DNA of 44,862 bases, from contig JAGAUF010000073.1 in assembly GCA_017620885.1 (NCBI GenBank), positions 1-44,862 of the forward strand. The letters run 5' to 3'. Both the position numbers and the translations under genes were made by a program. How positions within the stretch are numbered: the first letter of the stretch is position 1; every line of letters starts with the position of its first letter. Shown here piece after piece: positions 19,169-31,515 of this stretch. Under the pieces are notes generated by a model. That model worked only from the letters and a program-made list of their open reading frames with translations. It was not told where the DNA came from and did no database searches. This stretch comes from Muribaculaceae bacterium. GTDB lineage: Bacteria; Bacteroidota; Bacteroidia; Bacteroidales; Muribaculaceae.

Positions 19169-22100
19169 TTATTTGACGAGTACTTTGACGAAAGCGTTGC
19201 CGTTCTTCACAAGATAGATACCTGCATCGGTGGGGATGCGCTGGCTGTCGCTCTTGACGTTGACGGTGCGTACATATTTGCCGTCGGTGGTATAGAGCGC
19301 GATTTGCTGTCCTGCAAGGCCGGAGACGATGATTTCGCCGGTGCCGCCGTAAACGCCGCTGAGGTCCGTCAGATCGTCAACACCGAGAGAATAGACGATT
19401 GCCTCGTTGGAGCGGGGACCTTCGGTGATTCCTTTAGGAGCGTTGACGTGGGTAGTCACGAAGTAGATAGCGTTGTTGTCGCCGCTGTTCTCGTGCGTGA
19501 AGGTGTTGCCCTTGACGTTGTCGGCCACTTTCTCGAAGGTGTTCCAGTCACGGTTGAGGTAGCGGTAGACGGAGAAATGGTCCACGGTCCATTCATTGAG
19601 CTGAACAGGTGAGAAGGAGATGTCGTCGATGAGGGCGGCGAATGAGTCGAACGAGCGGTAAACGAGGGCGAAGTATTTAGCCGTCTTGGGAAGAGTGTAA
19701 GTTACTTTTTCCCAAGTTTCTTCACCGGTCTTCGAGAATGAGCGCACTTTGTGGAATGAGCCGCACTTGTCGGGTGTCGAGGCGTCACCGGCCACAATCG
19801 CGTCGCCGAGATGGTCGTCGGTTTCCGATACCCAGAGTTCTACATATTCAGTCTGCTCTACCGAGATTCTGTTATACCAGAAGGATATTTCGCTTCCGGG
19901 CACAACCTCCGGAGAGATCAGCCAGTCGGCTGCTTGAGGAGCTTCTTCGACTCCGAACTCGTATTCAAGTGCGCGGGCCATCAGATACTGGTTGCCGCTG
20001 TGCGGATAGAGACGCGGGTCGCCGAGGAGGTTGAGTGACTTGGCGTCGATAACTGTCCATGCCTGAGGCTCGTCGATGCCCGGCCAAGTAAGTCCTTCGA
20101 TGCCGAAGCATTTGCGCTTGTCCATATCGACATTGCGGAATGCACCGATTTTCTCCAAAGGAGTGAAGGGCACCTCATAGTCGAAGTTCTCGCTGGCACC
20201 ATGCTTAACGTCGGGCGTCGACCAGTTGAGTGTGACGGCGGTGTGTTCGTCATTGTATTTAGCCTCAAGATCGTTCACAACGGGGAGTTGTGATTTCACG
20301 ATTTTAACTTTGTATGAAGCGGTGTTGTTCACTTCAACTTCGTCTTCAATCGGTTCAATCTCAGCCTTCATGGTGATGTATTCATAGTCTTTCCATTCGG
20401 GCTTAACGAGGAACGTGTTGTAGAAGGAACCGGAACGTCCTGACGGCAGGTTAGGTGTGCGGTTTTCGTGCATATCGAGGAACTTGCCGTCGGGAGCGTA
20501 GAGCTTGATGTTGGCTTGGCAACGGTTGTTCTCTTCGCCTGAGTTGGCTACGGTAAGAGTTGCTTCAAACTTGTCGCCGATGCTACATTCTTCGGGACCG
20601 GTGAAAGAGGAAATCTTCATATCGTAGCTTACGTTCTGACGTATGCGGTAATTGTCGATGACGAAGTATTCATTGAGTGTGGAAGCGAAGTCCACATTGA
20701 TGAATATCTGTATCCACGGCTGGTTGGCAAACACTTCGGGAAGGATGAACTGCTGTTCGTTCCATTCGCCGGATGAACCTTTCTTATAGTTGATCTCACC
20801 GATCTGGATGATATTGTCAGGGTCTGAAGCGACGCGTCCGGTGAGATAGACTTTCGGAGTTTCGGCATAATCCCAAGTTTTGGCTGAGAAGAGCACTTCG
20901 GGGATGCCGAGCGTGGATGCTTTCGGGAGCATAATCTGACCCTTGCAAGGCACTGCGGCTTCGCTGAAGAAGAGCACGCATCCGGCGTTGACTATGGGAT
21001 TGCCGCCTATTTCGAGGCCGAGAAGCGAACGTTCGTTACTCCAGTTGGTACCTCCGTATCCGTCACCTGTGCGGCGTATTACGGGATAATAGTCGAAGTG
21101 GGTGGTGCCGTATTCCTCTGTCATCGGGAGCTCGTAGGGAGTTCCGAGGATTTCAGAATGGAAGTGAACATCCTGCGATTTGCCGGCAACGGTTTCGGCC
21201 TGAACGCCAAGCCAATAGTGGGCCTGTTCTCCTGCCGGTTCTGCGGTGTAGTCGAAGGACGTGGTCTTGGAAGTGCCTACCTTCTGAGGGTCTACAGCGG
21301 ATTTCCAGCGGGCGAAGATATTGTATGTGCAGTCGTCGGGGGATACGTATCCGCCGTTGATTCCGACAGAAGAGGGTTCGTCCCAATGGATATTGACTGT
21401 GCGGTTGTTGGCTTTAGGCGATCCGATGACGTTTCTCGGGCTGTAGGGGGTGTCGACACCGATATACTGACGGCTTACCACGGTACGGCCGTTGCCGTTG
21501 TCGTTGGCTACGGTGATGAAGAACTGGTTGAAGCCGTCTTCGAGAGCTTTGACATGGCCTGTTACGGTGCTTCCGGGAAGACCTTCTTTAAGGTCGAATT
21601 CGTCTACGCCTTCACATTCGAAGGTCACCTTGAGGTTCTTCTGTGCGTCGAGCGGCTGTCCGAAGGAGTTGAGCGTAGGAAGCTTGACTTCGATGTCGGC
21701 TTCAAGCGCACCCTTTTCGGCGGGCTTAACTTGGATGTCGGTAACGCCTTGCGGTACGTCGGCACTCTTGTCGGTAGCGCTGATCTTGACACCGCTGATG
21801 CTCATACCGCGACCACGGTTAGCTTTCTTAGAGCAGTAGTGGAATGCTACGTAGTAATCGCCGGCTTCGGGTACAGAGAAATTGACTGAGTATTCGACGG
21901 GCATAAGGGGACAACGCATCTGATTACGCTGCCAGATGATGTCGTCGGCTTTGAGCTTGGAATAATCGAATGATTTAGCGAGATAGATTTCGAGGTCTTC
22001 GCGCGTTACACCGGTGTAAAGACCACCGATGTTGAAGTCGAGCTTATAGAGCTTGGTAGCGTCTTCAAACTTGGAGAGGGGGAAGAATACCCACTCGTCG

Positions 22101-23884
22101 GCGTCGTTATAGTAGTTGATGAGCATGTGGAGAGCCTCGAAGCCGAGTTCCTTCGGTGCCCAGTGCGTAAAGGTTGTTCCGTCGCCGTCGCCGTCGATAA
22201 TCTTCGTGATTGAGAGGCCTTCCTCAGAGAAGTCTACTTCCATCGGGAGGGTGCGGGCACGACCTACGATTTCGTAGAGCATAGCGGGCTCGGATTCCAT
22301 ATTATTGGCAACGGCACGCACTGAGATGGCTGTGAGGGCCATATCAACGGGCTGAATGAAAGTATACTGAGTGTCGGTGATAGGACGTGAGTTTTGTTTT
22401 ACATTGTTGAAGTATACATCGTAATAGAGTGCCGAACGATCAACGTAACCACCGTGTGCACCACCTTCGACGGGCGCCTTCCAGCTGAGCGTATTGTTGT
22501 CGAGACGCACGTTAGTGGGAGAATATGGATTGTCGTGGCCGGTAAAGAACTTCGTTGAGATGGTCGGGCTGGCAAGCTCGTTTGCCTCGAAATAGATGGA
22601 GGCTTCGTGCTGACCTGCGCTGAAGTCCTGCGAAATGGTTTTGGTTTCGCCGGGAGTGAAGTCTTCTTCGAGGAGTTTCTTATCGTCAACGGTAAGAACA
22701 CCTTTGAGCTTGGTTCCTGCGGGGAATGCTACGCCGCTGTAAGCGAGTTCGGGAGCCGTCACAGAGATTGTAGTGGTTGTGCTGGCTTTGTCGGCTGTAA
22801 CGACGGGCTTGGCGGGAATTCCGGGGGCATCCCACTCGGCGTAGGGGTCGGTGTTGTGGATAGATGATATGTAACATCCCATAGGAGCCGAGATGCCCGG
22901 ACCGCGAGTCACCTCAAACGTTTCAGCATCAATGTAGTCGAGATAATACATCTGAGCGGCCGTTACTTGGGAAGCAACCACGAAACAACGGTCGAGCGGG
23001 CTATATGTGATAGCTCCGGGGTATGTGGACTGGAAGAGGGGTGAGTTGTCTTCAGTGGTGAGCGACGCGCCTTCTACTATCGTACCGTTGGTGCGGTTGA
23101 GGATGTAGGCAAGGTTGTTCTCGTTGAAGATATAGATTTCACCATCGAGGGGGTTATAGCATATAGCGTTGAGGAATCCGTAGCTCTTCAGGTCGCGGAG
23201 CAGGTCAACGGTATAGGTCTCGGGGTCGATTACTACGAGCTGGCTGACAGTGTTGCCGCCATCGGAGAGCGAGAGACCGTAGATTTTGTTGGTGGTGGGG
23301 TCGTAAGTCATCGTGTAGGGGCTTGCGATCTCATTGCCATCAAAGTCAATAGTGCGGAGCAGAGAGCCGGAGTCGAGGTCAACGACAAACCAGCGAACCG
23401 CAAAATTGAATACTGTGGATTCCACCGAGGGAAGATAGAGGGTATTGCCGATTGTCACACCCGACTGGAATTCATAGTCGTCGCTGCGATAGTGGGCGCC
23501 GTAATAAGCGGGGGTTAATTTCCCTGTTTTGGCGTCGATTTTGCCGAGGAATGCCTGTTCCTGAGCCACGAGTTGGGCGTGCTGAGGCACAACGGCGTAG
23601 AAATTTCCGCGACGGTCTTCGGCCGAGCGGGTGAGATAATTGGGAGCTTTCTCAGCCGTGGGCACCTTGAATGTGCCTCCATGACCGGAATCTTCCATAC
23701 CGGGTTTATTCATCTTGCGACCGGAACGAGAGCGCATTTTTTTTGCGTTCTCTTTCACCTGCGTGGATGAAATCGTCTTCCCGGCGGGATAGATTTTCTC
23801 CCATGCGCCTGCTGTGGTAGGCGCGAGAAGGGCTGCCGCGATGATTGCGACAAGCACTTTGCAAGTTAGAAGATTTCTTTTCAT
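19169..23884 (-). CDS. Giant multidomain surface protein with fibronectin-like and choice-of-anchor J domains
   Basis: A 1571-aa exported protein. I chose the ATG at 23884, which gives a clean signal peptide (residues 1-27, ending TTAGA); the frame extends upstream but not as signal sequence. Residues about 90-390 have repeated short beta segments (TYDPTTNKIYGLSL, YNPLDGEIYIFN, YSPLDRCFVVA) like a beta-propeller. Fibronectin III-like units occur near 455-545, 815-900 and 1200-1250 (NTLSWKAP, VNIHWDEP, VTLNWSTP). Residues about 1255-1430 match a choice-of-anchor J/MAM-like domain (LISPEVVPGSEISFWYN, FALVYRSFDSFAALIDDI). The last 70 residues form the C-terminal tail (GEIIVSGLAGQQIALYTT, GIYLVKNGNAFVKVLVK) resembling type IX cargo. 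The ligand is unknown. It stands alone between a terminator and a 358-base gap. Confidence 0.8.
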   Translation of the reverse strand: MKRNLLTCKVLVAIIAAALLAPTTAGAWEKIYPAGKTISSTQVKENAKKMRSRSGRKMNKPGMEDSGHGGTFKVPTAEKAPNYLTRSAEDRRGNFYAVVPQHAQLVAQEQAFLGKIDAKTGKLTPAYYGAHYRSDDYEFQSGVTIGNTLYLPSVESTVFNFAVRWFVVDLDSGSLLRTIDFDGNEIASPYTMTYDPTTNKIYGLSLSDGGNTVSQLVVIDPETYTVDLLRDLKSYGFLNAICYNPLDGEIYIFNENNLAYILNRTNGTIVEGASLTTEDNSPLFQSTYPGAITYSPLDRCFVVASQVTAAQMYYLDYIDAETFEVTRGPGISAPMGCYISSIHNTDPYAEWDAPGIPAKPVVTADKASTTTTISVTAPELAYSGVAFPAGTKLKGVLTVDDKKLLEEDFTPGETKTISQDFSAGQHEASIYFEANELASPTISTKFFTGHDNPYSPTNVRLDNNTLSWKAPVEGGAHGGYVDRSALYYDVYFNNVKQNSRPITDTQYTFIQPVDMALTAISVRAVANNMESEPAMLYEIVGRARTLPMEVDFSEEGLSITKIIDGDGDGTTFTHWAPKELGFEALHMLINYYNDADEWVFFPLSKFEDATKLYKLDFNIGGLYTGVTREDLEIYLAKSFDYSKLKADDIIWQRNQMRCPLMPVEYSVNFSVPEAGDYYVAFHYCSKKANRGRGMSISGVKISATDKSADVPQGVTDIQVKPAEKGALEADIEVKLPTLNSFGQPLDAQKNLKVTFECEGVDEFDLKEGLPGSTVTGHVKALEDGFNQFFITVANDNGNGRTVVSRQYIGVDTPYSPRNVIGSPKANNRTVNIHWDEPSSVGINGGYVSPDDCTYNIFARWKSAVDPQKVGTSKTTSFDYTAEPAGEQAHYWLGVQAETVAGKSQDVHFHSEILGTPYELPMTEEYGTTHFDYYPVIRRTGDGYGGTNWSNERSLLGLEIGGNPIVNAGCVLFFSEAAVPCKGQIMLPKASTLGIPEVLFSAKTWDYAETPKVYLTGRVASDPDNIIQIGEINYKKGSSGEWNEQQFILPEVFANQPWIQIFINVDFASTLNEYFVIDNYRIRQNVSYDMKISSFTGPEECSIGDKFEATLTVANSGEENNRCQANIKLYAPDGKFLDMHENRTPNLPSGRSGSFYNTFLVKPEWKDYEYITMKAEIEPIEDEVEVNNTASYKVKIVKSQLPVVNDLEAKYNDEHTAVTLNWSTPDVKHGASENFDYEVPFTPLEKIGAFRNVDMDKRKCFGIEGLTWPGIDEPQAWTVIDAKSLNLLGDPRLYPHSGNQYLMARALEYEFGVEEAPQAADWLISPEVVPGSEISFWYNRISVEQTEYVELWVSETDDHLGDAIVAGDASTPDKCGSFHKVRSFSKTGEETWEKVTYTLPKTAKYFALVYRSFDSFAALIDDISFSPVQLNEWTVDHFSVYRYLNRDWNTFEKVADNVKGNTFTHENSGDNNAIYFVTTHVNAPKGITEGPRSNEAIVYSLGVDDLTDLSGVYGGTGEIIVSGLAGQQIALYTTDGKYVRTVNVKSDSQRIPTDAGIYLVKNGNAFVKVLVK

Positions 23885-24242
23885 GTTGATATTATTGTAA
23901 TTGTTTAATTTTTCAAATTGCAAGCGTCCGAGTGGTAAACGGAAGCTATGTTGCCGGCTATGCGGTTCAGGCAATTCCCGAGCATTGGATTCGGGGAAAA
24001 GAGAGATGTTTGGTTTGAACGCCCTAAATTACTACTTTTTTTCTTAACGGGTACAAACTTTTTTGTTAAAAATTTTTCTATGGCGGTTTGTGCGCGGTTG
24101 CAGATAGGTGTATGTATAGGGTTAATTAATTATTGATTTTCAATAAATTTTTATCTTTTTAGTTTATCGTCAATTAATCCGGCGTATTTTATTGGATTTA
24201 TCAAAAATGAAAATATTCTTCTGCCGGAATGAAATTTTTGGA
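23885..24242. other. AT-rich intergenic region
   Basis: No gene is visible. It should hold the end of the DUF2752 transcript and the promoter of the 1571-aa protein gene. The best minus-strand promoter candidate is TTTG (24057-24054), 22 nt, then TAATTTAG (24031-24024), one mismatch from consensus with a long spacer. Long A/T runs occur at 24034-24085 and 24125-24165. I see no clear terminator. Confidence 0.45.
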
Positions 24243-24629
24243 TTAGAGATTGAAAATATTTCTCAAAACAGTCCATCCTGTGGCAAGAAGGCAAAAAACG
24301 ATGCATCCCCATTTGCCGTAAATGCGTATGTAAAGGTGACGGTGTCGTGTTCGGTTGAATTCCAGCCATATCAAAAAAATGATGACAGGAATCATAAGGA
24401 CGAGGAATGCGTTCTGTCGGAACGCTTCGGCCAAATTTCCCGTCAGCAGGGAGTGAATCATACGTTGCGAGCCACATCCGGGACACTTGTATCCCGTAAT
24501 CATAAATGTGATGCATTTGGGCATCCAGTATGCTTCGGCCGGGTCGAAAGCGGCATAGACAGCGGCAAACATTATCAGGGCGCAGATGGCGGAGAGGACT
24601 TTAATCTTCCGCTTTCCGTCCTGCGTCAT
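24243..24629 (-). CDS. DUF2752 membrane protein
   Basis: A 128-aa protein with three hydrophobic segments (about residues 9-28, 65-85 and 102-122). It has the family motif ITGYKCPGCGSQRMIHSLLTG (two cysteines and a GSQR sequence) that defines DUF2752. Function is not known. I chose the start at 24629, which overlaps the upstream stop codon as ATGA; this gives a normal-length protein. As I recall, DUF2752 and CD225/dispanin genes are often neighbours in Bacteroidetes. Here the CD225 domain is the tail of a PurN fusion, and the tight coupling suggests the two membrane proteins are made together. Confidence 0.85.
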   Translation of the reverse strand: MTQDGKRKIKVLSAICALIMFAAVYAAFDPAEAYWMPKCITFMITGYKCPGCGSQRMIHSLLTGNLAEAFRQNAFLVLMIPVIIFLIWLEFNRTRHRHLYIRIYGKWGCIVFCLLATGWTVLRNIFNL

Positions 24630-25717
24630 TTCACCAAGAGCGATAGGGGTAAATAAAGAGCGGAAAAGACGATGCCTGCCACAATTGTGATTATCAGCCA
24701 TATCTCCGTCATACGTGAAGATCGTTTCGCTCCCTCTATGTCGCCTACATAATATTTCGTGCTGACTTGCGACGAATATATTATCGCGATAATACCCGGA
24801 ATGAGGCAGCAAGCGAGGGTCAGAACGACAGCCCAAACGAAATAGGAGGGAGGCATGGGCTCCGTAGGCTGACATTGCGCGTTCGTCGCACCCGGCGTGA
24901 CGGGCTGCTCAAGCGGCTGTGCGGGAATATGCGGCGCCTGTGTCTGACAGGGATTCTGTGGCGTGGCTGCGTCCTCCGGGATAGGTGGCGTCAGCGTTTC
25001 TGCCGGGGAGGGTACGCTCAGCGCTTCCGCCCATTCGTCCTGCAGGCGTTTATCTGTCCCTTCTTCGGTTTTTTCTGTCGGTTCGGGCGCAACGGCTGTT
25101 TCTTGATTAACATCTGACGGAATCCGCGGAGGCAACGTAGCGGAATCAAGCCGCTCTACCAGCTTGACGATGGCGCGTGGATAAAGAGAATATTCCACAG
25201 GGTGAATTTTCTCTTCAAGCGTCCGGGGAGTGTCCTCGGGTGTGACAGTCACCTTCTCCTGCATGATGATTTCTCCCTTGTCCATTTCGTCCGTAACGAT
25301 GTGGACCGTCACTCCGCTTTCTGTCTCGCGTGCGGCGACGACTGCCTCGTGGACATAATGACCATACATCCCCTTGCCGCCGTAAGCCGGCAGCAGTGAA
25401 GGATGAATATTCAGGATACGCCCTTCGTAAGCCGCGATGATTTGCGTAGCCACATAATGCATAAATCCCGCCAACACCACGATGTCGATATTGTGATTGT
25501 GGAGTATTTCCACGATCTTTTCCGGCTCGTTGTCCCATACGGAATTCGGCACGTAGATTGTTTCGACGCCCAACGGCTCCATACGCGCTATGACGCCCGC
25601 ATTACGCCTGTTGGTCAGCACCAGAGATACATTTATCCGGCTGCCGTTATTGAAGATACGCGCGATGTTTTCGGCATTCGTTCCCGAACCCGATGCAAAT
25701 ATAGCTATTCTTTTCAT
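24626..25717 (-). CDS. purN: PurN fused to a CD225/dispanin membrane domain
   Basis: The N-terminal part (residues 1 to about 193) is glycinamide ribonucleotide formyltransferase of purine synthesis. It has IFASGSGTN (about 7-14), AGFMHYV, the NIHPSLLPAYGG loop with catalytic Asn103 and His105, and DEMDKGE with Asp146, so it looks catalytically intact. A Pro/Glu/Gln-rich linker of about 95 residues follows. Residues about 289-363 are a CD225/dispanin domain: a membrane segment with a cysteine pair (VLTLACCLIPGIIAIIYSS), the VGDIEGAKRSSR loop and a second membrane segment. PurN alone is normally about 190-210 aa. There is no methionine between the last PurN residues and the CD225 domain, so separate translation is unlikely. 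The start at 25717 lies about 35 nt after the predicted transcription start; in-frame ATGs at 25726 and 25750 are less likely. Confidence 0.88.
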   Translation of the reverse strand: MKRIAIFASGSGTNAENIARIFNNGSRINVSLVLTNRRNAGVIARMEPLGVETIYVPNSVWDNEPEKIVEILHNHNIDIVVLAGFMHYVATQIIAAYEGRILNIHPSLLPAYGGKGMYGHYVHEAVVAARETESGVTVHIVTDEMDKGEIIMQEKVTVTPEDTPRTLEEKIHPVEYSLYPRAIVKLVERLDSATLPPRIPSDVNQETAVAPEPTEKTEEGTDKRLQDEWAEALSVPSPAETLTPPIPEDAATPQNPCQTQAPHIPAQPLEQPVTPGATNAQCQPTEPMPPSYFVWAVVLTLACCLIPGIIAIIYSSQVSTKYYVGDIEGAKRSSRMTEIWLIITIVAGIVFSALYLPLSLLVK

Positions 25718-25758: not shown

Positions 25759-25790
25759 CAAAGTTAATCTATTTTCCACCCTTCTCCAAA
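25759..25790 (-). promoter_or_regulatory. Promoter of the purN-CD225/DUF2752 operon
   Basis: On the minus strand TTTG (25790-25787), 20 nt, then TAACTTTG (25766-25759), an exact consensus match. The start near 25752 supports the ATG at 25717. I see no purine riboswitch between them. Confidence 0.75.
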
Positions 25791-25916: not shown

Positions 25917-26930
25917 ATGGAATTTTTAACGAATGATAAGCTCACGATAGTGGGCGCAGCCGGTATGATCGGCTCGAATATGGCGCAGACAGCTCTTATG
26001 ATGCGCCTCACCCCGAATATCTGTCTCTATGACCCCTACGCACCCGCGTTGGAGGGTGTCGCTGAGGAGATGAGACATTGCAGTTTCGAGAATGTCAATA
26101 TTACTTATACTTCTGATATTAAGGAGGCTCTGACGGGAGCCAAATATGTAGTATCGTCGGGTGGCGCAGCCCGTAAAGCCGGCATGACGCGCGAAGACCT
26201 CCTGAAGGGCAACGCTGAGATTGCCGCTCAATTCGGAAAAGACGTTCGCGCATATTGCCCGGACGTGAAGCACGTCGTCGTCGTCTTCAACCCTGCCGAC
26301 ATCACGGGCCTTATCACGCTCGTTTATTCAGGCTTGAAGCCGTCTTGCGTCTCAACACTCGCCGCCCTCGACAGTACTCGTCTGCAGAGTGAACTTGCCA
26401 ACCATTTCGGCATCCCGCAGTCGAGCGTTACAGGAGCCCGCACATACGGCGGTCACGGCGAACAGATGGCCGTCTTCAAATCGGGCACGATTGTCAATGG
26501 CAAACCGCTGACCGAGATCATTGAAGAGGGAACCCTTTCCGGTGATGACTGGAAGAATATAAAGGTGAAAGTGATTCAGGGAGGCAAAAATATTATCGAC
26601 CTGCGTGGCCGTTCATCCTTCCAGAGCCCGGCATATCTCTCTGTCAGCATGATTGCCGCCGCTATGGGTGGTGCGCCGTTCCGCTGGCCTGCCGGTGTAT
26701 ATGTCAATGACGCTCGCTTCCGTCATATCCTGATGGCTATGGAGACCGTCATCACCAAAGAGGGAATCAAGTTTAATCCTGCCAAGGGAACTCCCGAAGA
26801 GGAGGCTGAACTCGAAGCCAGCTACAAGCATCTTTGCACCCTGCGCGACGAAGTAATCGCAATGGGCGTGCTGCCTAAAATCGATGACTGGAAGAAATAT
26901 AATCCCTATCTCGACGATATCACGGCCTAA
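25917..26930 (+). CDS. mdh: Malate dehydrogenase
   Basis: Interconverts malate and oxaloacetate with NAD. The 337-aa protein has the Rossmann loop IVGAAGMIGSNMA (residues about 10-22), the NAD-binding acidic residue in CLYDPYA, FNPADITGLI, the DSTRL arginine segment and the catalytic histidine in ARTYGGHGEQ. It matches the lactate/malate dehydrogenase family in the form I recall from Bacteroidetes. Upstream, 25800-25916 is A-rich with no consensus promoter that I can see. It converges with the B12 operon, with a shared hairpin at 26975-27008. Confidence 0.9.
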   Translation: MEFLTNDKLTIVGAAGMIGSNMAQTALMMRLTPNICLYDPYAPALEGVAEEMRHCSFENVNITYTSDIKEALTGAKYVVSSGGAARKAGMTREDLLKGNAEIAAQFGKDVRAYCPDVKHVVVVFNPADITGLITLVYSGLKPSCVSTLAALDSTRLQSELANHFGIPQSSVTGARTYGGHGEQMAVFKSGTIVNGKPLTEIIEEGTLSGDDWKNIKVKVIQGGKNIIDLRGRSSFQSPAYLSVSMIAAAMGGAPFRWPAGVYVNDARFRHILMAMETVITKEGIKFNPAKGTPEEEAELEASYKHLCTLRDEVIAMGVLPKIDDWKKYNPYLDDITA

Positions 26931-27039: not shown

Positions 27040-30000
27040 TTATTTGCGGATCATCACTCGTTTGCCGTTGATGATATAGAGGCCCGGGGCGAGCGTCCTT
27101 ACGTCGTCGATGCTCCCGTTGCGTTTGAGTACCATACCCCCGACGGTAAAGATTTCGTATTTGCTGTTGTCGTCGAATACGGAATCAACATCGAGCGAGG
27201 TCACTACGTAGATGTAGATGAATTCGGGCGATTCTGTATCTTCCACACTGAAGGTCCCGGCAGGGACGACGAGGCGATAATTGCCGAGCGGAAGCAGAGC
27301 AGCTTCATCTGCGGAAAGAAGGACTTCTCCATTCTGACCGAGTGTCACATTATATTTGTAACCATCTACTGCTTCCAGACCGGTTTCGGTCGTCTTGAAT
27401 AGTTTTACGTCAGAATTTTCGGCGATTGCCGTAGCCTGAAGACCATCGGCAAGTGTCAGCGTGATGTCTCTGAGTTCGGAATCATTAACACTCCCCTCGG
27501 CGGGATTCACGGAAGGTCGGTTAATGATTACCTCGGGTTTCTCAATCGTCCACGTGTGCGTGTATTCGAGATTGACCGCACCGTTTACGAGGAAGAATCC
27601 TGCCGGTATCGTCATCTTATAGACGCCGGGTGCTGCCTTGTAGTCCTCATCGACGAGGAAGAGGAACGTCACGGCCGTGCCTGCGGGTTCAGCCGGTTCT
27701 TCGTCGGCCAACGGATCTACATCACCTCCGCCGATTATCACGTTGGAATCGCTGACAGCGAGGGCTTCTCCGATCTGTTTGCCGTCGAGAGTCATAATGA
27801 CCTTCGAGGCGCTTTCACTGTTCACCTTGACGTTGCCGTCAATTGACATCATCACGGCAAGGCTGCCATTCCACGTTTCTTCAGGAGTAAACTCATCATT
27901 CGGGCTGATAGCCGTCACAAGCGGCTCGATGTTCACCGGATCGAGATCCACAATCCAGCTCTGAGTGAATTCCGCTACGGGTGCGCCGTCGATAGTGAAG
28001 AATCCGGCCGGAATCTTAATCTCATAGAGACCCGGAGCCACCTCATAATCGTCTGCCGTCAAGAACGGGAAACGAACGAGATACTGTGCCGGACGGTTGT
28101 CCGAATTTTCTTCGTTGTCGGCTGAAGCGGCGGGATTGACTGTAAGCATGACGGATGAGGCAGTCAGAGCGTTGCCGATCTGTTTGCCGTCAAGAGTCAT
28201 CACGACTGCATCCTCACCCTTCTCATTCTTCTGAATCTGGCCGAATACGCCATATTCAACCGTTACTCCGAATTTCCAGAAATCTTTCGGATCGACCGTT
28301 TCGTTGGGAACGGCTGTAATGATATAATCGCCGAGTTTTACCTCCTCTTCGGGCACATTATAATAACGGTTGAAGTTTTTGTCGCAGCGCACTTCCTCTC
28401 CGTTGAGAACGGGATAGGCATCTGTGCCGATTGTCTGTCCGAAGGGGGCGCCAAGTCTGAAGGCCACTTCTCCGGAAGCCATCTGTGCGTCAGTGACGAT
28501 AACGCTTCCGTCATTTATTTTGTATGCCTCGACAGCGTATGCGTTTCTGACATTGTTTTTGGCGGTCGTTGAACCTACGCACGCGCCGCCGGTACTGGGA
28601 TTGACGGAGTTTACCTTTCCGATGTTGTAGACATTTTCTACTGTAACGGACGCATTGCCGTGGCAACCTAAGATACCGCCGCAATTGGCCGCCGCCTTGA
28701 GATTGCCGGTGTTGCAGCAGTCTTTTACAGTCACGCTTTCGGCGTAGGCATAACCGACGATACCGCCGATGTTGTTGTTGTCGCCCGTGATATTTACGTG
28801 ATTGACGCAGGATTCGATAGTTGCGAATTGTCTTGCATAACCCGCTATACCGCCGGAGTTGCTGAATACGTGCATCTGTCCGTCTACCTCGATACCCGAA
28901 ATAAGAGCCGGAGCCTCTTCCGATTCACCTTTGACGTATCCGAAGAGCCCTTTGTAAAGGCCGGTATAACGAGTATTGTCGTTGATGTAAAGACCCCTGA
29001 CGCGGTGGTTGCCTCCGAGGAATGTTCCGCTGAAATAAGTACCCATATTGTTGCCGATAGGAGTCCAGTCGTAGTTGCCCAGATCAATGTCGGCCGTTAG
29101 AACCGCGTTCAGGTTGCGGGTGTTGGTGTTCACCTCATTGGCGAACCATGCCAGCTCGCTGCCCGTGGAAATTTGATAAACACCATCTATTGATGCGGGC
29201 TCGGTAAGAGTTTCTCCGTCCCAGCAGTTGGCCGACTGTTCCATCTCGACTTTGAAAGTCTGCAATCCTTCAGCGTCGTCGGCGATATTGAATGTATTGC
29301 GGTAGCAGCGGTAGCCCTTCTTTCTTGCCACGACATCATACATTCCGTACGTGCCGGAATATAATCCCGTCTCTGCGTTGGCTTCAAGTACGGTTTCGCC
29401 GAATTTCATCTCAGTCTCGGCGTCAGCCGTATGGTTTTCAAGTCTGATGTCGAAAAGTTTATAGGGAGAAAGAGTGAAGCTTAATTCGGGAACATATCCG
29501 AAATAAGTCTTATGGGGAATTGCTGTAAAGTTGGGGGAACGTCCCGCTTCAGCGTCAATATTGCGGTGGTTGCCTATCGGATCGCCGTAACCGTTCACCT
29601 GAATGACGCCTTCCGTCATCTTGATTTCAGGAGTCGTCGCCACGTCGTGATCGGAGGGAATCGAGACAGTGACGGCTTGTGCGGCGGGAGCCGAACCGAA
29701 CGTGTACTGTCCGGCGCCGAGTATAAGCGATGATCCGTTGGGAACTCCGTTATAGGTCACATAGGCCGACATATTGTAGATACCTGCCAGTTTGTTTGCC
29801 GGATGAAAAAGACCGGAATACTGAATCTTGATATTGTCGCCCGGCTGGAAAATCTTGCTGTCCGCACGCGTGGCGTTTATGATTTCGCGGTGACATTTTT
29901 TCGCCGTCATCACCTGATATGTGGAATTGCCCGAAGCGTCGGTGAGACGCACAATCTGGCGCCCGTGCTTGAGAAGAAGTGTATAAGTGCCGTCATCGTT

Positions 30001-31515
30001 GCGCGTCACACCTTCAGTGCTGAAACCGGTATACGTGGCCATACGCTCCCCGATGGTCGGATAAGCGATCTGAATGGAGGCGACTCCCTCCGGTTTGAAG
30101 GTATATTTCGCACCCTCTTCAGTATCAAGATAATAGAATACGTCGTGTTCGGAATCTACATATTTCCCGGCCAATTTCTTGGCACCGTCGTTATATGCCT
30201 CGTTGATTATCATATTCGGCACTACGGATGACTCCGTCCCGCCGACGGTCACCACGTAGGCAGCTGTATTCTCCGGCCATATAGCGCCCCAGAAAGAGCC
30301 TCCCATATAATCGCGGATAGTACTGTTGTTGTACATATTCAGCTTGATGGCGTCATACGTTACAAGAACGATGACCGTGCCTTGTCCGATAGCCTTCAAA
30401 TCGGCCCACGCGGAAGATGGATCGCTTTCGATGCTGATGACGCTGTTGTCGGGCTTGCCGTCGAGACCTATGACGGTATAATGGAATTCAGGTTCGATGA
30501 AGTAGTTGTTGGTCTGGGAGTCGGTCAGCTGCCATGTGCGCATGGCATGTGCCTTGAATGTATCGCCCTGACGCAGTTTGAGATGGCCCTGCGGGTTGAT
30601 ATTGACGAAGATGTCGCCCGTCTCGTAGCCCTGATTGGAGTCCACACTGTGGTTCACCTGAAGAGGATTCCCTTCGTAATCGGATGTCGTGAAGACGAGT
30701 TTGGGACGCTTGGCCTCATTCGCGGACATTGTGAAGTAGCCGCCGAGCGTCATTTTGCCGGGAATACGGGTGCGATAATTGTATACCTGTCCGAGCGCGA
30801 GACGGTAATTGTATATCGTCGTGTCGCCTTCGGCAACTATCGATTCCGCATTTACAGGAGTGAAGTCCACGAAATGCGCGAATTTCATATTAAGCTGGAA
30901 TTCAGCCTCTTTGGGCACTTTGATGACAAAGTCTTCCGCCTTGGGGATAGAAGCCGAGACATTGATGTTGCCCGTCAATGTGTTGCTTCTGTAATACGAG
31001 ACGTATCCTTCGGCACGGCGTTTTTCAGCAGGGGCGAATTCAGCATAGAATGAGTCGCCGTTGAGCGCAAGGAACGTCTTGCGTCCGGCGGTGGTGCTGT
31101 TGCCGATGGTAACAGGGTGATTGACCCCCTCGCGGCTGTTCACCTTTACGTTGAGGGTATAGTCGTCGCCGTACACCCATGTGTTTCCATCCTCATCTCT
31201 GTTGGTCGCATAAGCGGTCAGAGTGAGAACAGTGATCTGCTGTTTGGCGGAGTCGCCCACGCAGACCTCGATTGTTCCGTTGACGGTAGTTCCGTCTTTC
31301 GCGTATCCTGTCAGCACATACTCTCCGGGCGTAGCGTCGAAGTTGTAGATGTACTTGTCAGGGCTGCCGGCCTCGACAATCTGCCCCGTGGTCTTGGATT
31401 TCATTGTCATCAGTTGTGACACTGAATTCATCTTCACGGTCAGATTCGTAGCCGATACGCTTATGGCACAGCTGCATATCGCGAGCAGTGCCAAAAGGTA
31501 GATTTTGGCTTTCAT
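27040..31515 (-). CDS. 1491-aa surface protein of the cobalamin operon
   Basis: The last gene of the riboswitch operon, starting 29 bases after the second propeller gene. A type I signal peptide (1-22) is followed by about 750 residues of beta-rich Ig-like and unassigned sequence. Next comes a GLUG-type beta-helix region (about 780-1030; ISTGSELAWFANEV, LTADIDLGNYDWTPIG, SGGIAGYARQFATIESC). Then come repeats of about 120 residues (1060-1420) that share MTLDGKQIG and VPAGTF/IPAGFF, as in the 685 and 3353 proteins. The last 45 residues form the shared tail (VGGMVLKRNG, LAPGLYIINGKRVMIRK). Position in the operon suggests a role in cobalamin capture or retention at the surface, comparable to BtuH in Bacteroides. 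No sequence match to BtuH is claimed. Confidence 0.75.
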   Translation of the reverse strand: MKAKIYLLALLAICSCAISVSATNLTVKMNSVSQLMTMKSKTTGQIVEAGSPDKYIYNFDATPGEYVLTGYAKDGTTVNGTIEVCVGDSAKQQITVLTLTAYATNRDEDGNTWVYGDDYTLNVKVNSREGVNHPVTIGNSTTAGRKTFLALNGDSFYAEFAPAEKRRAEGYVSYYRSNTLTGNINVSASIPKAEDFVIKVPKEAEFQLNMKFAHFVDFTPVNAESIVAEGDTTIYNYRLALGQVYNYRTRIPGKMTLGGYFTMSANEAKRPKLVFTTSDYEGNPLQVNHSVDSNQGYETGDIFVNINPQGHLKLRQGDTFKAHAMRTWQLTDSQTNNYFIEPEFHYTVIGLDGKPDNSVISIESDPSSAWADLKAIGQGTVIVLVTYDAIKLNMYNNSTIRDYMGGSFWGAIWPENTAAYVVTVGGTESSVVPNMIINEAYNDGAKKLAGKYVDSEHDVFYYLDTEEGAKYTFKPEGVASIQIAYPTIGERMATYTGFSTEGVTRNDDGTYTLLLKHGRQIVRLTDASGNSTYQVMTAKKCHREIINATRADSKIFQPGDNIKIQYSGLFHPANKLAGIYNMSAYVTYNGVPNGSSLILGAGQYTFGSAPAAQAVTVSIPSDHDVATTPEIKMTEGVIQVNGYGDPIGNHRNIDAEAGRSPNFTAIPHKTYFGYVPELSFTLSPYKLFDIRLENHTADAETEMKFGETVLEANAETGLYSGTYGMYDVVARKKGYRCYRNTFNIADDAEGLQTFKVEMEQSANCWDGETLTEPASIDGVYQISTGSELAWFANEVNTNTRNLNAVLTADIDLGNYDWTPIGNNMGTYFSGTFLGGNHRVRGLYINDNTRYTGLYKGLFGYVKGESEEAPALISGIEVDGQMHVFSNSGGIAGYARQFATIESCVNHVNITGDNNNIGGIVGYAYAESVTVKDCCNTGNLKAAANCGGILGCHGNASVTVENVYNIGKVNSVNPSTGGACVGSTTAKNNVRNAYAVEAYKINDGSVIVTDAQMASGEVAFRLGAPFGQTIGTDAYPVLNGEEVRCDKNFNRYYNVPEEEVKLGDYIITAVPNETVDPKDFWKFGVTVEYGVFGQIQKNEKGEDAVVMTLDGKQIGNALTASSVMLTVNPAASADNEENSDNRPAQYLVRFPFLTADDYEVAPGLYEIKIPAGFFTIDGAPVAEFTQSWIVDLDPVNIEPLVTAISPNDEFTPEETWNGSLAVMMSIDGNVKVNSESASKVIMTLDGKQIGEALAVSDSNVIIGGGDVDPLADEEPAEPAGTAVTFLFLVDEDYKAAPGVYKMTIPAGFFLVNGAVNLEYTHTWTIEKPEVIINRPSVNPAEGSVNDSELRDITLTLADGLQATAIAENSDVKLFKTTETGLEAVDGYKYNVTLGQNGEVLLSADEAALLPLGNYRLVVPAGTFSVEDTESPEFIYIYVVTSLDVDSVFDDNSKYEIFTVGGMVLKRNGSIDDVRTLAPGLYIINGKRVMIRK
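27771..28200 (-). repeat. Coding repeat within the 1491-aa protein
   Basis: The segment coding MTLDGKQI occurs at 27771-27795 and 28176-28200 with one base difference over 25, at the same place in two tandem Ig-like units about 135 codons apart. It indicates recent duplication of a domain. Confidence 0.7.

Follow-up and report, generated by a model that had tools for sequence, protein, structure and literature searches.

A PurN domain joined to a CD225 membrane domain in one genus of Muribaculaceae, with intact and decayed forms

In the trifunctional purine enzymes of the GART type, PurN is one domain among several, and its partners are soluble purine enzymes. PurN itself needs cytosolic substrates. 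Fusions of an enzyme with an anchor, in which the enzyme later turns into a pseudoenzyme, are known in general. As for the CD225/dispanin family, with its antiviral IFITM proteins, the first dispanin paper gives as its motifs CC in the first helix and G-D and A-x6-A in the loop, and places both termini outside (PMC3282796). In IFITM3, an EPR and NMR study describes an intramembrane first segment, one transmembrane helix and an intracellular N-terminus (PMC4820770). For SynDIG4, a re-entrant helix and one transmembrane helix are reported (PMC13262616). On bacterial members, the literature searched, as far as the texts were accessible, yielded a family survey and a study in which mycobacterial copies were tested in human cells for virus restriction, and no function in bacteria. 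DUF2752 is not named in this literature, nor was a PurN-CD225 architecture found in it; a paper on the E. coli folate-purine metabolon is unrelated, and the word "membrane" is absent from the part of it that was accessible (PMC12583656).

The fused gene and its counterparts in the genus

The stretch of DNA analyzed here (the window) comprises 44,862 nucleotides of contig JAGAUF010000073.1 from a Muribaculaceae bacterium (assembly GCA_017620885.1). On its minus strand, at 24626..25717, one unbroken frame runs through a PurN domain, the Pro-rich linker after it and a CD225 domain, as the first-pass annotation had claimed without stating the strand. The protein has 363 amino acids and starts with MKRI; an in-frame upstream ATG would lengthen the N-terminus by MFK. 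Since the window belongs to a fragmented assembly (118 contigs, 87% complete), an assembly or sequencing error that joined two genes had to be considered. A search of 111 genomes of the genus, one of gut bacteria, together with the reading of frames, gave 42 further full-length loci of the same architecture in other genomes, with 41-62% identity where a single match spans the whole protein. An artefact is thereby ruled out, with practically no probability left to it, and PurN-CD225 is a real fusion; it was not the case that close relatives all have separate purN and CD225 genes.

The 43 full-length loci, window included, come from 43 genomes, two of which (G316 and G309) have identical proteins. 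Two rows were set aside: L236 duplicates L081 (G315), both being one locus, and the other is a second G307 contig with the same match. Altogether 42 of the 111 genomes carry a fusion with all four of the PurN residues tested (see below). Another 33 genomes keep the CD225 domain and linker and have lost the catalytic half of PurN, mostly with only the N-terminal half left; for four of these decayed forms, which have no PurN match at a phmmer E of 0.01, the assignment was made by reading the N-termini. In twelve genomes of the genus there is no fusion, and purN is free and of another type. An apparently longer, triple fusion in G315 (829-aa frame) was rejected, as its upstream part looks, by inspection, like an ABC transporter gene read in the wrong frame, and an extra PurN-like match in G329 is by inspection a PurU-like frame. 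Beyond the genus, the fusion was not seen in a sample of the family (247 genomes, 26 of them of the genus, at E 1e-40) or of the order (295 genomes, at E 1e-58), thresholds that a strongly diverged fusion could escape, and there was no CD225 in the best 80 of 264 named free-purN loci.

The PurN domain (residues 2-183; 25169..25714, minus strand) matched Pfam Formyl_trans_N (PF00551) over profile positions 1-181 of 181 with an E-value of 1.1e-38, far above the cut-off. Asn103, His105 and Asp146, which had been listed as evidence of an intact active site, are all present and so is N14; from what is known of E. coli PurN, we take N14 to be the Asn of the GAR site and the other three to be catalytic. 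All four residues occur in 42/43 full-length fusions, in 12/12 free PurNs of type A and in 25/25 of type B. The match to TIGR00639 is marginal, with 147.9 bits by hmmscan against the curated equivalog cut-off of 150.1, and 149.8, or 150.1 with neighbors in frame, in the genome search, where three free type A PurNs (G349, G013 and G310) also fell slightly below the cut-off. The predicted reaction of the fused PurN is the formylation of GAR with 10-formyl-THF.

The CD225/dispanin tail proposed earlier (residues 288-355; 24653..24856, minus strand) is borne out by a match to PF04505 over the full profile, 1-68 of 68 (E 1.3e-21, 76.9 bits against a cut-off of 27.1). Its membrane location is predicted; 19-residue windows with hydropathy above 1.4 start at 287-302 and 333-345, the two hydrophobic segments of the domain, and additionally at 76-79 inside PurN. 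The window protein carries both CC and GD, which are found in 42/43 and 39/43 full-length fusions, respectively, while just five of the 16 CD225-only proteins of the genus have GD. By reading, A-x6-A is A-x6-T in the window protein (the motif is present in 36/43 full-length fusions), and the domain call was kept because the profile match is very strong. The closest solved chain by sequence is PRRT1/SynDIG4 (9zks_M, E 3e-5).

Between the two domains lies a Pro-rich linker (residues 191-287; 24857..25147, minus strand) with the motif DEWAEAL, of the form WAxxL, at residues 227-233. In the full-length fusions the linker is long, has a median of 18% Pro and varies in length. WAxxL precedes CD225 in 43/43 full-length fusions, in 29/29 decayed fusions examined and in 15/16 CD225-only proteins, the single miss (L200) being cut by a contig end. 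As it is retained in proteins without PurN, and at a variable distance from CD225 (33-75 residues in the full-length set), it seems to belong to the CD225 protein and not to PurN. The linker also bears on the idea of a processed precursor, by which a protease would cut there, or translation would restart at Met288, to give soluble PurN and free CD225, with the fusion serving co-expression only. Its length, its Pro content and its variability would suit such processing, as would the position of Met288 at the CD225 border. The prevalence of WAxxL in PurN-free proteins nevertheless means that this motif is no PurN-release site, and we regard processing as very improbable. The lack of an internal Met had previously been put forward in favor of one chain. 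The window linker has no Met until 288, yet Met288 is itself internal, and since a Met ahead of the corresponding position occurs in the linker of 25 of the 43 full-length fusions, the absence of an internal Met cannot serve generally to argue for a single chain. The stronger argument is that the joined frame is conserved from species to species.

Neighborhood and origin of the fusion

Downstream, at 24243..24629 on the minus strand, is a gene for a DUF2752 protein (PF10825, E 2.6e-18, 66.3 bits against a cut-off of 27), whose start overlaps the stop of the fusion gene in an ATGA at 24626-24629, consistent with the coupling originally described. Upstream, TTTG-N20-TAACTTTG at 25759..25790 (minus strand) agrees with the consensus promoter reported earlier; the pattern, which we take to be of the Bacteroidetes type, has three matches in the window against 0.29 expected. 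A lactate/malate dehydrogenase family gene (25917..26930, plus strand) is divergent from the fusion and was found at the window's own locus only, among the genus loci examined. The surroundings also include two very large frames on the minus strand, one of 1601 aa on one side (19169-23974), with a DUF6383 match at its C-terminus, and one of 1491 aa on the other (27040-31515).

The DUF2752 neighbor, while real at the window locus, is no general companion of the fusion, as it follows 16/43 full-length, 23/33 decayed and 16/16 CD225-only genes. The earlier remark that CD225 and DUF2752 genes are adjacent in the absence of PurN was accurate for 21 of the 25 loci sampled in the family outside this genus, which are the 30 best-scoring CD225 loci of the family less five of the genus. 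CD225 proteins occur in 241 of the 247 genomes of the family sample. Among loci L034-L063, CD225 with an N-terminus that reads as GYF_2-like and a downstream DUF2752 gene form what is apparently a standing pair across the family.

Commonly found next to the fusion is an MsbA-like exporter gene, a label that derives from the best NCBIfam match of one protein, below its cut-off (510 vs 602). It lies upstream on the same strand at 36/43 full-length, 22/33 decayed and 14/16 CD225-only loci, the window's own locus being one without it next door, and at 0/12 type A and 0/25 type B purN loci. An msbA-purN arrangement was encountered in four of the 80 named free-purN loci (the best 80 of 264), none with CD225; these come from metagenome-assembled genomes titled Muribaculaceae (three) and Porphyromonadaceae (one). 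It recurs in three of 11 purN loci of nearby genera, of which one (G202) is the same record as the named locus L086. These neighborhoods would be explained if the ancestral order was msbA-purN-CD225-DUF2752 and the purN stop was later lost; no unfused msbA-purN-CD225 locus was found among the loci examined. As msbA-purN without CD225 and msbA-CD225-DUF2752 without purN both exist, an accidental junction is easy to imagine, and this favors a neutral passenger, i.e. a purN that lost its stop beside a CD225 gene with its function unchanged and the anchor merely tolerated, and whose remnant aids only folding, translation or insertion of CD225. Other observations on this alternative are given with the decayed forms.

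Gene trees served to compare the states. In a tree of 120 rows (43 fused), the fused PurN domains group together as a single clade with an SH-aLRT of 100, and they do so again (100/99) in one of 55 rows (25 fused) from which the distant type B was left out; when type B is included in a 62-row tree, it branches within the fused rows, where support is weak (85/37). For the CD225 domain, the tree (86 columns) has few supported forks and resolves little: neither intact nor decayed forms are one group in it (10 and 12 changes), and the supported forks force only one change. By the PurN trees, the fused PurN has a single origin. With 43 loci, this origin and the four residues in 42 of them, the initial suggestion that purN was captured by the CD225-DUF2752 pair, or lost its stop before it, fits the findings.

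Purine synthesis, decay and replacement

No other PurN was found in any of the 42 intact-fusion genomes (at E 1e-30), and no PurT in 19 of them (at E 1e-60). Ten of the 19, among them the genome of the window, were examined. PurD, the source of GAR, is above its cut-off in all ten; PurH has a match in all ten as well, which exceeds the curated cut-off in two and is truncated by the end of a contig in the genome of the window. Given PurD and PurH and no other PurN or PurT, the purine pathway appears to run via the fused chain, which is probably the only GAR transformylase of these 19 genomes, bearing in mind that many genomes are incomplete. Counted against a tethered GAR transformylase (see below) is the coexistence of PurT with an intact fusion in 23/42 genomes. 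A second PurN was sought in the window's genome and not found; one other formyltransferase match there is Fmt-like (best NCBIfam match fmt, on a fragment), the remaining formyltransferase match is below the cut-off, and there is no PurT at E 1e-60. PurT is patchy in the genus, with matches in 58 of 111 genomes at E 1e-60, 56 of them above the cut-off. In G007 (C36:3626-6427), PurD and PurH are adjacent and score far above those of the other nine genomes checked, while the fused PurN is retained, possibly a case of partial operon replacement.

Among the decayed forms, none of the 29 examined retains all four residues; 22 keep none and seven keep one, in an alignment that is uncertain past residue 105. 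In L208, as an example, the PurN profile is below its cut-off (E 0.0089). Another GAR transformylase was identified in 31/33 decayed genomes, namely a free type B PurN in 26 and PurT in five more, and neither was detected in the remaining two (G023 and G329). Type B was counted in 34 of the 111 genomes, of which 25 were placed in the tree, as a single clade, and nine (six of the 26) were assigned by TIGR00639 score alone. Its association with decayed as opposed to intact genomes is strong (Fisher's test, 4e-14). The neighbors of type B purN fall in the same families at 24 of the 25 loci examined, and one example tested per family gave PurM, PurH and PurD, the PurD piece being cut by the locus end and below the cut-off. 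The block purM-purN-purH-purD was apparently acquired as such; at L237-L261, 25 loci of the genus, the divergent free PurN lies in this neighborhood. The decayed N-terminal halves group together (86) within the clade of fused forms (93), in a tree that carries a long-branch warning, and because they are a single clade, decay and replacement look much like a single evolutionary event.

The remnant is seemingly under purifying selection. Over the first 110 codons, dN/dS of decayed genes was 0.09-0.14 in seven of eight pairs with measurable dS, pairs that were chosen by hand, with three of the seven low values from one trio and two with dS above 1.4. The eighth pair gave 0.41, on three synonymous and four non-synonymous changes, and four further pairs were saturated. 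Of nine intact pairs, the seven with dN/dS above zero gave 0.01-0.16 over the same stretch. In addition, two residues that are found in 0-17% of any free PurN group are conserved in the remnant, namely N26 (in 90% of 30 rows) and R27 (in 97%). Loss of the active site under continued selection suggests a second, membrane-associated job for the PurN half, and the selection could instead serve folding or insertion of the CD225 protein.

The neutral passenger draws further support from the four decayed forms without a PurN match and from the CD225-only protein of G025, which the CD225 tree places among mostly decayed forms (83), as both indicate that the remnant can be lost. Against it, the fusion persists across 42 species with about 47-62% identity to the window protein and with a free PurN in none, and the remnant retains N26 and R27, rare in free PurN, under selection. 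On balance, a mere passenger appears unlikely. One full-length fusion, in G307 (L162:2007-3104, minus strand), has kept its length with all four tested residues replaced; it is a whole-length dead enzyme and perhaps marks a second loss of catalysis, independent of the first. In this genome (68% complete), no other PurN and no PurT was found.

Proposed course of events and comparison with known systems

The reading that we prefer, to which we give a probability of roughly 70%, is that of a membrane-tethered GAR transformylase, i.e. an enzyme that was captured by a CD225 protein and at a later stage recruited as a module without catalysis. The event would have taken place in a single lineage of the genus, with purN joined in frame to the N-terminal end of a CD225 membrane protein whose original neighbors were DUF2752 and an MsbA-like exporter. 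PurN would be anchored at the inner membrane by the CD225 domain, which would comprise one transmembrane helix and a re-entrant helix like those of IFITM3 and SynDIG4, and the PurN domain would stay in the cytosol on its flexible Pro-rich tether, still producing formyl-GAR. Over time the PurN part may have come to serve the CD225 protein as a module for structure or interaction. The catalytic half would have been lost when its reaction passed to PurT or to a purine operon carrying a new purN, with the N-terminal Rossmann half retained for its second role. Both this role and the order of events are our inference.

Somewhat short of even odds is the narrower proposition that PurN has been domesticated as a membrane module with a second role at the inner membrane and persists in some 30 species as an anchored pseudoenzyme half. 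Such a role might lie in regulating the CD225/DUF2752/MsbA-like neighborhood, or in reporting the purine or folate state to it.

Both the tethering and a cytosolic N-terminus are predicted from sequence. If both termini were outside, as first described for dispanins, PurN could not work there, and this was counted against a tethered enzyme. An N-terminus in the cytosol, as in IFITM3, fits better because the fused enzyme needs cytosolic substrates. The fused enzyme may thus act as a built-in reporter of topology, supporting an IFITM3-like cytosolic N-terminus for bacterial CD225. The fusion also offers a handle on DUF2752. Furthermore, the genus has the intact enzyme, the full-length dead enzyme of G307, half-enzymes and PurN-free forms together, and the route from enzyme to pseudoenzyme is therefore traceable and testable in a single gene.

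Compared with known systems, the PurN half resembles a solved relative, 3p9x, to which residues 1-191 of the fusion align (E 8e-36), and N103, H105 and D146 are retained. GART chains also appear among the matches of this comparison. Free PurN chains compared have about 180-230 aa, to which the fusion adds a C-terminal Pro-rich tether and a CD225 domain. As in human GART, PurN is a single domain within a longer chain, but in contrast to the trifunctional purine enzymes its partner is a membrane domain and not other purine enzymes. With PRRT1/SynDIG4 and the CD225/dispanin/IFITM family, the fusion shares a CD225 domain with CC and GD, a Pro-rich N-terminal part and a very short C-terminus; it differs in having a metabolic enzyme as N-terminal partner and, in the window protein, a T at the end of A-x6-A. 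A similar architecture is seen in the CD225 proteins of other genera of the family, which likewise have an N-terminal domain (one protein was tested and gave GYF_2 in Pfam) and, at 21 of the 25 loci, an adjacent DUF2752 gene, whereas their N-terminal module is not PurN and no msbA match lies within about 1.5 kb at the 25 loci. With GYF_2 there and PurN here, the CD225 proteins of the family seem to carry exchangeable N-terminal modules, PurN being one of them.
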